Part shown: positions 1,872-9,170 of the stretch, piece by piece
Numbering within the stretch: the first letter of the stretch is position 1
How the letters are laid out: every line of letters begins with the position of its first letter
IMG/VR virus record: IMGVR_UViG_3300004461_000509
Span: 1-21,782 of that record
DNA: 21,782 bases
Reading direction: 5' to 3' (one strand)
From: a virus
Notes under the pieces: model-generated
Seen by the model: only the letters and a program-made list of their open reading frames with translations
Databases searched by the model: none
What the model was told of the DNA's origin: nothing
Translations under genes and position numbers: made by a program

Positions 1872-1899
1872 GGATGTTCTCCTTGTGTTCTCAAATGGT

Positions 1900-1928
1900 A
1901 TTATACCCGAATGAATTTACAAAACCAA
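1900..1928 (-). promoter_or_regulatory. Sigma70-like promoter of the leftward operon
   Basis: On the minus strand, TTGGTT (1923-1928), a 17-nt spacer and a perfect TATAAT (1900-1905) lie just upstream of the Shine-Dalgarno and ATG of the HNH-like gene. The predicted start is near 1893. It could drive the whole late block if transcription wraps round a circular or permuted genome. Confidence 0.65.
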
Positions 1929-1937
1929 CACTATAGG
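1929..1937 (+). promoter_or_regulatory. CACTATAGG, core resembling T7/SP6-type phage promoters
   Basis: The nine bases CACTATAGG match the core and start of T7 promoters and most of the SP6 core. The upstream recognition bases do not match either phage. The site points rightward into the structured non-coding region, back to back with the leftward promoter. No single-subunit RNA polymerase gene is in the window. A 9-mer match can arise by chance. Confidence 0.2.
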
Positions 1938-2238
1938 ACGCAGGGTAGCCCGTACCCCTGTATATAGGGGGGTAAGGGGGTCGGCGCCCCCTGTGGATAT
2001 CGATCGGTATCTGCTCCAGTAACCCCCAGGCTCGCACCCCTTTCCAAAACAGGTAGGCTATCCAGGTGTTAGGCCATAGGACCACGTGTCTACGTACCCC
2101 GGGGGGTCTTACTGTTACCAAAAACTTTGGACCTCTAACCTTTTGCACCCCACTGCAATGGTCGGGCGTCCGGGCAGGCTCTCGTGAATCGAGTCTCCTT
2201 CGTCGTCTCGACCCTACGGGCTTCGATCCTTGACGCAT

Positions 2239-2322
2239 ACGATCCTTGAGGGATCGTGTCGGTCTCCGAACCGACAGTCGGCCAACGGCTAGCCGCCCCG
2301 TTGGATCGCGCTGCGGACAGCG
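2239..2322. repeat. Row of four adjacent short hairpins
   Basis: Four perfect inverted repeats follow one another: ACGATCC/GGATCGT with loop TTGAG (2239-2257), TGTCGGT/ACCGACA with loop CTCCGA (2257-2276), CCAACGG/CCGTTGG with a 9-nt loop (2282-2304), and CGCTG/CAGCG with loop CGGA (2309-2322). A direct repeat GATCCTTGA sits at 2225-2233 and 2241-2249. Stems of 5-7 bp in tandem suggest a folded RNA or protein-binding array. Confidence 0.65.
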
Positions 2323-2594
2323 GAACCGTCCCGATATGCGCCCAGTCAGGGCCTGCGCTCCCTCTCCACTCTACGTCGATGTAACATTACACGGGGCCCT
2401 CTTCGAGGACCTCACGCTCCATGTTCCATCGTCGTTGAGCGGAGCCTCTTCCGCTGGTCAGCCTTCCTGAGTGCGCCAGCTCTTAAACTACTACACACAC
2501 ACATGAACCCCCGTGCGGATTGTCCCCCCGGGAGGCCATCCCATTTAATGCGTCGTCAACCCCACATGCTCCAACGCTACGCTTATGTGCGCGT

Positions 2595-2761
2595 GAGGGG
2601 TCGGGAGTTTACCCAAAATACAACATCACAGAACCTGACGCAACGTCATGGGGGTCTCGCTCCAAGGATCACCCTCAGTGCCAGTGAGCCCATGACGTAG
2701 CATCAGAACCTGAGATCTTGCATTTTGGGCCGCTCTGCTAAACTCCCTTGACCATCCCCTC
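2595..2761. repeat. Large imperfect inverted repeat (about 167-nt hairpin/cruciform)
   Basis: Paired blocks from the outside in: GAGGGG 2595-2600 with CCCCTC 2756-2761; GGGAGTTTA 2603-2611 with TAAACTCCC 2739-2747; CCCAAAAT 2612-2619 with ATTTTGGG 2722-2729; CAA 2621-2623 with TTG 2718-2720; then a symmetric 19x19 segment in which about 12 positions still pair; then ACGTCATGGG 2643-2652 with CCCATGACGT 2689-2698. The loop is 36 nt. The right arm carries one 9-nt bulge (2730-2738). Both arms also share CAGAACCTGA as a direct repeat. The fold reads on either strand; it lies about 95 bp upstream of the first rightward gene. Confidence 0.8.
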
Positions 2762-2855
2762 GTAAACTCGGCGCGATTAAATGTGCGGCAAGGAGATGGG
2801 ACAATGCACGAAGTTCCATGTGCGTTGTAGTTGTAACCAACCATAGGAGGCCATC

Positions 2856-4429: not shown

Positions 4430-4469
4430 AAGGTGTTTGTTGGTCCTCGTTCCTCGGACGGGAAACCGG

Positions 4470-5405: not shown

Positions 5406-5430
5406 CGGTCACTCCCAATGTTGGTAATCA

Positions 5431-5460
5431 AATATAGAACTCTTTAAAACGAGTTGTCCA
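5431..5460 (-). promoter_or_regulatory. Promoter with inverted repeat in its spacer, upstream of terS
   Basis: On the minus strand TGGACA (5455-5460), an 18-nt spacer and TATATT (5431-5436). The spacer contains an inverted repeat AACTC-N8-GAGTT (5438-5442 and 5451-5455) where a repressor could bind. The predicted start is about 20 bases before the ATG of terS. Confidence 0.5.
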
Positions 5461-5543
5461 TATAGGGGATTTACCACCCCTACTACAAAACTTCAATTTC
5501 TCTGTTTGGGGTACTGATCTGGGTTCGTCCAACTCAGATATGA

Positions 5544-5644
5544 TGTCATCATGATGACACTGTGATGACAAAGGACCAAGGACCGGTGACCCCTTATTAT
5601 TATGACCTTTCACCTATGATGATGACGCTGATGACGCTGATGAC
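5544..5644. repeat. TGATGAC iterons with a 16-bp palindrome
   Basis: TGTCATCATGATGACA at 5544-5559 is a perfect palindrome. The heptamer TGATGAC occurs at 5552, 5563, 5620, 5629 and 5638 on the plus strand and once inverted at 5545-5551. The last three are in 9-bp register (TGATGACGC, TGATGACGC, TGATGACAC). A variant TGATGAT lies at 5742 in the promoter spacer. The arrangement suggests cooperative binding of a protein, possibly an initiator or repressor encoded nearby. Confidence 0.65.
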
Positions 5645-5727
5645 ACCATTTCTGTTTTTTATTTTTACAAAAACACATGCACCCCCATATCCTCTATATA
5701 GCAACTCGTTTTTTCTCAAATTAATTG

Positions 5728-5756
5728 TTGAAATTAATACCTGATGATACTATATA
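5728..5756 (+). promoter_or_regulatory. Sigma70-like promoter of the rightward early operon
   Basis: TTGAAA (5728-5733), a 17-nt spacer and TATATA (5751-5756). The predicted start is about 5763, which leaves a 24-nt leader with AGGAG before the ATG at 5787. This argues against using the ATG at 5763 as the gene start. Confidence 0.7.
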
Positions 5757-5774
5757 AGACATATGAAACCTAAC

Positions 5775-5795: not shown

Positions 5796-6008
5796 CTACA
5801 AGAGTTTTACAACCTGATTACAGAAGCCACCGATATTATATCCGCGTTATGGTTTGATGATGGGTGGACGGGTGACTACCCGTACAAGACGCACACTGAC
5901 GGCAGTGTTCATTACACTGCCGAGGCGCAAGAGTTTTACAATCAGATTGAGGATCAGGTTAAGGGAATCCTGATTGGTTATTTCGTGAAGGAGAAATCAG
6001 ATGCCTAA
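5787..6008 (+). CDS. Hypothetical phage protein, first gene of main early operon
   Basis: 73 residues from the ATG at 5787, chosen because AGGAG lies 7 bases upstream and because the promoter start would make the upstream ATG (5763) leaderless. No family recognised. It is acidic and aromatic-rich, with WFDDGWTGDYPYKTHTDGSV in the middle and two similar helical pieces, QEFYNLITEATDI and QEFYNQIEDQVKGIL, which suggests a small internal duplication. The stop overlaps the next gene by 8 nt. Function unknown; position right after the strongest rightward promoter suggests abundant early expression. Confidence 0.7.
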   Translation: MPNLQEFYNLITEATDIISALWFDDGWTGDYPYKTHTDGSVHYTAEAQEFYNQIEDQVKGILIGYFVKEKSDA

Positions 6009-6009
6009 T
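5989..6009 (+). repeat. Duplicated ribosome-binding/start region, copy 2
   Basis: Exact 21-nt copy of 5775-5795. Here the same bases also encode the last residues (EKSDA) and stop of the preceding gene, which overlaps this start by 8 nt. Confidence 0.75.
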
Positions 6010-6201
6010 ACAAAAATAGTTACGTTCCAAGTAATGCGTCAAGAGACGTGGTATCCTGAGTACGAGGTTCCTGCACATTTAGAGGGTGACGAGTTGATAG
6101 AGTACATCAGCAACGAGGCCCCTGCTTCGGTGTTCGATGAGATGTGCAACAAGAGCACGTTGGACACTGAAACTTATATTCAACCTGTGGAGGAAGTGTA
6201 A
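6001..6201 (+). CDS. Hypothetical small phage protein
   Basis: 66 residues, no recognised family. The pattern (TKIVTFQVMRQETWYPEYEV, then GDELIEYISNEAP) alternates strands and a helix like a small alpha/beta fold, and it is acidic. The ribosome site and first codons are an exact copy of those of the previous gene. It ends in a TAATG overlap with the Api92-like gene, preceded by GAGGAAG, so the two are likely translated together. Confidence 0.68.
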   Translation: MPNTKIVTFQVMRQETWYPEYEVPAHLEGDELIEYISNEAPASVFDEMCNKSTLDTETYIQPVEEV

Positions 6202-8375: not shown

Positions 8376-8571
8376 ACGAAACTACTATCATCCCGACCTA
8401 ACCGATGAAGAAGTTTCAATACTAAGATTTTTAAGACAGGAGGCAGACAGATGCGAAAGCGAAGTTAGAGTTCACCAACCCAATAACAATAGTTGGCAAC
8501 GACTATGGTACGCGAAAGAAAATCTCGCACGATACGTAACACAACTTAGAAAGAACGGAAAAAACCTATGA
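8365..8571 (+). CDS. Hypothetical small phage protein
   Basis: 68 residues with no recognised family. It is helical and charged: DLTDEEVSILRFLRQEADRC, then WQRLWYAKENLARYVTQLRK. The layout (two amphipathic helices with Arg, Trp and Tyr) would suit a small nucleic-acid or protein-binding module; this is a guess. There is no clear Shine-Dalgarno; the start overlaps the previous gene by 11 nt and the stop overlaps the next start by 4 nt, so it is probably translationally coupled. Confidence 0.6.
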   Translation: MQNKRNYYHPDLTDEEVSILRFLRQEADRCESEVRVHQPNNNSWQRLWYAKENLARYVTQLRKNGKNL

Positions 8572-9170
8572 AACACAATAACTTCTCTGATGTATCAGAC
8601 ATGATCGAGCACAAAACATTTATTGTAAACCACATCACCATCCGAGATGAACGGGTCGTGGCTTGTTTTGGTCAAGCAGTTGAAGATTTGACCAGTTGCT
8701 ACATCACACCGAGCCTTGTTTACAAACACGAGCTCTCGGAGGGGCTGCTGATTAAAGCCCTAGTAGTAAAAAATTTGCATCAACAAAACAGCCGCACAGA
8801 ATGGCGTGTGGTGTCTATTGTAGCCACTGGTTACTTGGATCAAGAAGAGCCTGTCGATGTTAAAGAGCAGGTCGTTGAGGAGCCCGAGGTTTCTATCGAA
8901 GAACGTGTGAAGCATCTTTTCTCAGGCATGCCAGAAGAGTGTTTCACTTCGAGAGAGGTGTGCGAACTGGTGTTGGAAACTAAGGGCGTAAACGTCACGG
9001 TACGAGACGTTCTTCGAACGATGCACAGGTTAGGTGAGATTTGTCAGCTTAGAATAAAGACAAAGGCTTCGAATCGGCGCGGCACAATCCTTTGGGGTCT
9101 GAACATCTCATCCTTTGGGTTTACTGACGATGAGGTCGAGGACGAAGAAGTTGAAGTATACGAGGAGTAG
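8568..9170 (+). CDS. Phage protein: beta-rich N-domain, winged-helix-like C-domain, acidic tail
   Basis: 200 residues, no family recognised by name. Residues about 15-95 alternate hydrophobic strands (TFIVNHITIRDERVVACFG, YITPSLVYKHE, EGLLIKALVV, EWRVVSIVATG), which would suit an OB-like or other small beta fold. A Glu/Val linker follows (about 96-120). Residues 121-180 resemble a winged helix: ERVKHLFSG, EECFTSREVCELVL, VNVTVRDVLRTMHRLGEICQL, then a basic wing (RIKTKASNRRGTILWG). The tail is nearly all Asp/Glu. Beta domain, winged helix and acidic tail together recall single-strand DNA-binding and replication-accessory proteins, but I infer this from pattern only. ATG 8568 overlaps the upstream stop by 4 nt. 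Confidence 0.7.
   Translation: MKHNNFSDVSDMIEHKTFIVNHITIRDERVVACFGQAVEDLTSCYITPSLVYKHELSEGLLIKALVVKNLHQQNSRTEWRVVSIVATGYLDQEEPVDVKEQVVEEPEVSIEERVKHLFSGMPEECFTSREVCELVLETKGVNVTVRDVLRTMHRLGEICQLRIKTKASNRRGTILWGLNISSFGFTDDEVEDEEVEVYEE

Follow-up and report, generated by a model that had tools for sequence, protein, structure and literature searches.

A gene-free region between divergent operons

The window analysed here is a 21.8-kb virus record (IMGVR_UViG_3300004461_000509, 21,782 nucleotides), probably a fragment, from a marine tailed phage related to Pelagibacter phage HTVC023P. Its DNA polymerase matched those of the nearest isolates at 52-53%. In the ORF list of the window, reading frames stop at 1871 and restart at 2856, between a leftward HNH_3 gene and the first gene of a rightward operon (Table 1). 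Four ORFs of 65-115 aa within this region had no Pfam match and were not preserved among relatives. The 984-bp gap between divergent operons, which the sequence-only reading had described as gene-free, is therefore real. The terS gene lies about 2 kb past its right end. Among the genes downstream of the region in the window, no anti-defence or SSB function was recognised, and no conjugation genes were recognised among the proteins scanned.

Table 1. Features of the non-coding region and adjacent genes, in window coordinates.
Feature	Position	Strand	Remarks
HNH_3 gene, 84 aa	1617..1871	minus	left operon, divergent, start at 1871
Whole non-coding region	1872..2855		between divergent early (right) and late/HNH (left) operons
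Invariant AT-rich divergent element, 37 bp, ATTATACCCGAATGAATTTACAAAACCAACACTATAG	1900..1936		30 distinct contigs, one copy each
R1, three-way junction, ~76 nt, 23 base pairs, GNA loop CCC-GTA-GGG	2160..2237	minus	covariance model, window 83.4 bits
Hairpin ACGATCC-TTGAG-GGATCGT	2239..2257	minus	alignment; compensatory variants among relatives
Hairpin GTCGGT-CTCCGA-ACCGAC	2258..2275	minus	alignment; variants GTCAGT/ACTGAC, GTCTGT/ACAGAC, GCGGTT/AACCGC
Hairpin CCAACGG/CCGTTGG	2282..2304	minus	alignment; variants CAAACGG/CCGTTTG
13-mer GGCCTGCGCTCCC	2350..2362		also in F and R100 Frpo regions after R1
Long imperfect hairpin	2612..2729	minus	where F has its Frpo hairpin
First gene of rightward operon, 94 aa	2856..3140	plus	no assigned function

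Viral contigs were scanned with the neighbouring proteins and the conserved left-end motif, which turned up about 60 loci carrying the left-end element; 30 of these were distinct. A homologous region of 758-1217 nt was present at the equivalent position in 29 distinct loci of related phages, namely those reaching far enough. In all 29 the order was an HNH-type gene, the 37-bp element, a stretch without a conserved ORF, and a similar operon of small genes. The non-coding sequence was mosaic; some contigs were 95-97% identical to the window in the right half and only about 76% on the left. Mosaic matches together with a constant order indicate a maintained, recombining, non-coding locus. A blastn search of the full 984 bp against phage records gave no match, and a 77-nt block was required to find matches. 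The sequence CCTCGTTCCTCGG was present in another intergenic region of the window (about 4442-4460) and, in two relatives (L073 and L089), as an insertion within the structured region, a distribution that suggests exchange of palindromic modules.

The 37-bp element, with the consensus ATTATAnnCGAnnnAATYTAnnAnACCAAYAYTWTAG, was the most conserved sequence of the locus. A sigma70-like promoter on one side and a T7-core-like site pointing into the region had been proposed as flanking signals. Both sequences are present, and they overlap within this single element. The minus strand carries TATAAT with TTGGTT 17 nt upstream, and the plus strand carries the T7-core-like ACCAACACTATAGG (CAYTATAGG) directed into the region. 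The promoter assignments fared less well, as TTGGTT-17-TATAAT fell below the standard sigma70 threshold, and PF00940 (T7-type RNA polymerase) was absent from the window and from four relatives of 31-56 kb, all possibly incomplete, under a search that detected the HTVC011P positive control. A CAYTATAGG core beside an AT-rich stretch at the early/late divergence resembles a T7-type promoter or primary origin. However, there is one copy per contig here, and the cognate single-subunit polymerase is missing from the window and from the four relatives of up to 55.8 kb, so a T7-type promoter is unlikely. The simplest reading of the element is a putative double-stranded divergent promoter for the host polymerase.

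In a 55.8-kb relative, the structured locus lay at the divergence of the late (minus) and early (plus) genes and bordered a GC-skew minimum (4-8 kb) in which gene direction confounds the skew. The skew of the window, similarly confounded by gene direction, changed sign with a minimum near 5.5-6 kb. An AT-rich intergenic stretch at 5406-5762, with GATGATGACGCT-type direct repeats and the GC-skew sign change, is a candidate double-strand replication origin. The adjacent HNH_3 gene and the nearby terS gene would suit a packaging site or genome terminus. However, the 55.8-kb contig continues across the structured locus and lacks end repeats, and the R1 module described below, where it occurs in plasmids and microviruses, has no link to tailed-phage packaging. 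We give a packaging or terminus function very little credence.

Folding of the region and the R1 module

Positions 1872-2855 folded better than 20 of 20 dinucleotide shuffles on either strand, with z-scores of -4.38 for the plus strand and -6.47 for the minus strand. In 10 relatives, the structure was mainly in the right half and the first 200 nt or so were unstructured. For a subset of the relatives, the mean z-score was -7.0 on minus and -5.6 on plus with RNA parameters, and -8.1 and -6.1, respectively, with DNA parameters. Counts of G-U versus A-C pairs in the 3' domain leaned modestly to the minus strand (15 v 4 in shared pairs). The dense structure predicted by the sequence-only reading was borne out by these scores, and the giant hairpin that it described exists, with 41-nt arms at 2612-2652 and 2689-2729 that are 80% complementary. 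The non-template arm of this long hairpin contains TTGCGT-17-TATTTT, which was no better than other hairpin arms or background.

R1 was the best conserved block in the alignment of marine loci. Its minus-strand fold comprises outer and inner stems, the inner one with a conserved A.G mismatch, together with the mini-hairpin CCC-G(A/T)A-GGG and a longer hairpin that contains another A.G mismatch. In the 14 phage variants, both-sided changes occurred in 7 of the 23 pairs, and 95% of cells paired; when the partner was slid by one column, pairing fell to 51%. All four cells with one-sided changes were G-U on the minus strand and would be A-C on the plus strand. The conserved mismatches are A.G if read on minus and C.U if read on plus. 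The comparative covariation check that had been proposed for the region thus returned compensatory changes, both in R1 and in the neighbouring hairpins.

A covariance model was trained on the 14 marine phage sequences only and was searched against other replicons. In 15 outside matches, compensatory changes were found in 17 of the 23 pairs and 99% of cells were paired. None of 500 shuffles reached the covariation score of these matches; since the outside alignment was fitted to the R1 model, the slid controls, in which no more than 53% of cells paired, give a fairer comparison.

R1 in plasmids and microviruses

R1 is homologous across plasmids, microviruses and tailed phages. On plasmid F, the model gave exactly two matches in the 21 kb searched (E 3.2e-11 and 5.6e-10). 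Each precedes the first gene of an early operon by about 470 nt: ssb follows one of them, and a gene pair ending in DUF932 follows the other. Judged by position, the two matches are the published Frpo2 and Frpo1 regions (PMC9849209). Other matches were found in R100, in E. albertii (twice), in Klebsiella (75.5 bits), Pseudomonas (upstream of ssb), Azospirillum and Xanthomonas plasmids, in a gokushovirus (68.8 bits) and two further microviruses, and in Sphingopyxis phage VSN-002. A blastn search with the block also gave intergenic matches in ssDNA microviruses and in VSN-002. With the phage version of the block (E up to 0.01), 2068 plasmid records were matched, 1706 of them conjugative; the microvirus version (E up to 1) matched 3645 plasmid records. 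Written as a DNA pattern, R1 occurred in 105 stretches of bacterial genomes and 73 of viral contigs. Pfam assignments of the genes after R1 (n=68) included ParB_N (7), ArdC (5), Antirestrict (5) and DUF932 (2).

R1 was absent from the ColIb-P9 leading region, which has two other segments of the F region. It was also absent from the searched stretches of HTVC023P, 023Pt_psg01 and DSL-LC04, which by polymerase are the closest cultured phages. Two marine relatives (L170 and L192) kept the 37-bp element and the non-coding locus and had other hairpins in place of R1.

The orientation of R1 relative to genes was scored in each group. In bacterial contigs carrying the 105 pattern stretches, the gene was opposite the R1 strand in 54 of 55 gene-element pairs, which are not all independent because a locus may contribute several genes. 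The counts were 12/12 for ardC, 10/10 for DUF932, 8/8 for psiB, 7/7 for yfjA/ParB, 4/4 for ardA, 1/1 for ardB and 12/13 for ssb. In the microviruses (two contigs scored and three annotated), Rep and VP1 were on the R1 strand, which is the virion strand. The R1 block was present in 27 of 29 aligned marine loci, and all 27 had the plasmid orientation. In the window, R1 is on the minus strand and the operon on the plus strand; the strand that folds there also serves as template for the operon downstream.

In plasmids, R1 opposite the genes means that it folds on the template strand of the leading genes, and the template strand of a leading region is the strand transferred first (PMC11541004). Since R1 is opposite the genes in plasmids and on the same strand as the genes in microviruses, a single DNA strand is the sole state common to both, and no one RNA sense fits. 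By the rule of plasmid orientation, the minus strand folds in the window, and the rightward operon is read from it.

These counts, rather than folding energy, weigh most heavily against a large ornate structured RNA of the GOLLD/ROOL type, running rightward from the 37-bp element or leftward on the minus strand. The region does resemble GOLLD, ROOL and OLE RNAs (PMC12286853) in being about 1 kb long, ornate and phage-associated with covarying helices. Its size, hairpin density, compensatory changes and length of 758-1217 nt among relatives would all suit such an RNA, as would the promoter-like invariant element at the left end and the conserved GGG-GCACACAG sequence after it. Unlike those RNAs, it has no covariance-model match, and the strand evidence favours DNA. 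Rfam searches at gathering and relaxed thresholds, GOLLD and ROOL included, gave no match, and the best below-threshold E value was 0.41. A plus-strand RNA would be antisense to the microvirus genes, a minus-strand RNA would be antisense to the plasmid leading genes, and the conserved mismatches are A.G on minus and C.U on plus. In addition, the region yielded no terminator-like site, and visual inspection of its right end showed no conserved promoter on the minus strand. The region is not a GOLLD or ROOL RNA, and a large RNA that works like them is unlikely. Of the three guesses in the sequence-only reading, which were a large RNA, an origin and a terminus, the homology and orientation of R1 disfavour the first and fit a folded DNA strand, which belongs with the second.

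The same counts bear on two further explanations. A cis-acting structured 5' leader RNA of the rightward operon, for instance in antitermination or processing, with an incidental DNA fold, would account for the plus-strand orientation upstream of genes in plasmids and marine relatives. The reverse sense in microviruses and the better folding of the minus strand make it very unlikely. Mobile palindromic modules of the REP/MITE kind, accumulating between the genes of phages and plasmids without a conserved job, would explain the module exchange among relatives and the occurrence of R1 in many replicons, in some as multiple copies. However, orientation to leading genes is fixed (54/55 pairs), the place is constant in the marine family, and compensatory conservation is long-term, so mobile modules are highly improbable as an explanation.

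A probable single-stranded DNA element

PMC9849209 and PMC11541004 cite Masai and Arai (1997) for Frpo1 and Frpo2 of the F leading region as ssDNA promoters. As a single strand, Frpo takes up a fold that restores -10 and -35 boxes and brings in RNA polymerase; in vivo it drives leading genes (PMC9849209, PMC11541004). The region in the window shares several features with the Frpo1 and Frpo2 regions. R1 is in both F regions and in R100 with the same strand logic, a hairpin-rich non-coding stretch lies upstream of an early operon, and a long hairpin lies between R1 and the gene. The 13-mer GGCCTGCGCTCCC, as a second shared module, agrees with F in order, but its E value of 0.82 makes it weak on its own; the F segment that contains it is common to ColIb-P9. 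Unlike the Frpo regions, the window belongs to a double-stranded-DNA tailed phage, its downstream genes are unrelated, and its RNA start is only predicted. The AT-rich Frpo hairpin itself had no sequence match in the region. The region also resembles ssi sites (complementary-strand origins), in that microvirus R1 is intergenic and on the virion strand, as a complementary-strand start site would be. This likeness is one of place and strand, and priming by R1 is putative.

We consider it probable that the region is a leading-region-type (Frpo/ssi-like) ssDNA element, whose folded minus strand lets RNA or primer synthesis start rightwards. What the analysis establishes is homology, conserved structure, the strand that folds and its position. 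From the known behaviour of Frpo we infer a priming or promoter function, the enzyme involved and the production of RNA, and from the map a stage at which the DNA is exposed as a single strand in the phage. Once made single-stranded, the minus strand would fold into R1, a series of small hairpins and the long imperfect hairpin. This fold would allow a rightward RNA start by host RNA polymerase, as in Frpo, or by primase, as at other ssi sites. The RNA may serve as a primer for the plus strand, as the early transcript of the operon from 2856, or as both, and the 94-aa gene is the predicted first product read off the folded minus strand. The simplest way to expose the minus strand would be its displacement by a fork that starts at the GC-skew minimum, a few kb further right, and travels left; the map is consistent with such a fork, although gene direction confounds the skew. 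In the double-stranded form, the 37-bp element would act as an ordinary divergent promoter.

Several points count against the ssDNA element. Tailed phages inject double-stranded DNA, and the ssDNA stage of this phage is putative. Two relatives have the promoter element and lack R1. The -35 and -10 boxes of the long hairpin are no better than those of other arms, leaving the long hairpin a putative promoter, and the downstream genes have no recognised anti-defence or SSB function.

A further point against concerns the part played by R1 itself. In F, the AT-rich Frpo hairpin is some 230 nt downstream of R1, and ColIb-P9 retains that hairpin without R1. Together, these observations make a promoter role for R1 itself only putative. 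Because ColIb-P9 has Frpo-like segments without R1, R1 may be a helper of Frpo and not the start site. As a broader and more tentative proposal, R1 could be a general ssDNA start element of conjugative plasmids, microviruses and tailed phages, and the marine lineage could use it for transcription or priming from one displaced strand, which would give these phages an ssDNA stage with its own gene programme; we regard this as possible, with the chances somewhat against it.

Single-stranded promoters are already known from the part of conjugative plasmids that is transferred first, and there they allow anti-defence genes to work while the DNA has yet to become double-stranded. In the literature outside subscription papers and supplements, no report was found that linked elements of the Frpo type to tailed phages or to microviruses. 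What appears to be new is a covariance-supported motif shared across replicons, along with its occurrence in a lineage of double-stranded phages. If the proposal is true, a widespread marine phage lineage would have a previously unsuspected single-stranded-DNA stage. R1 raises the questions of its role beside Frpo and of whether double-stranded phages have a stage in which one strand is read. It is a compact searchable motif (76 positions) for sites where DNA works single-stranded, and it may aid the search for leading regions and anti-defence genes where elements lack annotation.

Several gene arrangements were observed around R1 in other replicons. Sphingopyxis phage VSN-002 (L201), which has an annotated telomere resolvase, carries three R1 copies around its ERF recombinase genes (5966-6047, 8517-8602 and 8977-9065), and R1 was near ERF or SSB genes in several other viral contigs. 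In the genome contigs L213-L317, from Pseudomonas, Alphaproteobacteria and Enterobacteria, R1 was upstream of ArdC, antirestriction (ArdB/KlcA-type), DUF932, PsiB and ParB-like genes. Genes without an assigned function that follow R1, such as those at 1896-2582 of L361 and 291-683 of L249, are candidate anti-defence or establishment genes.
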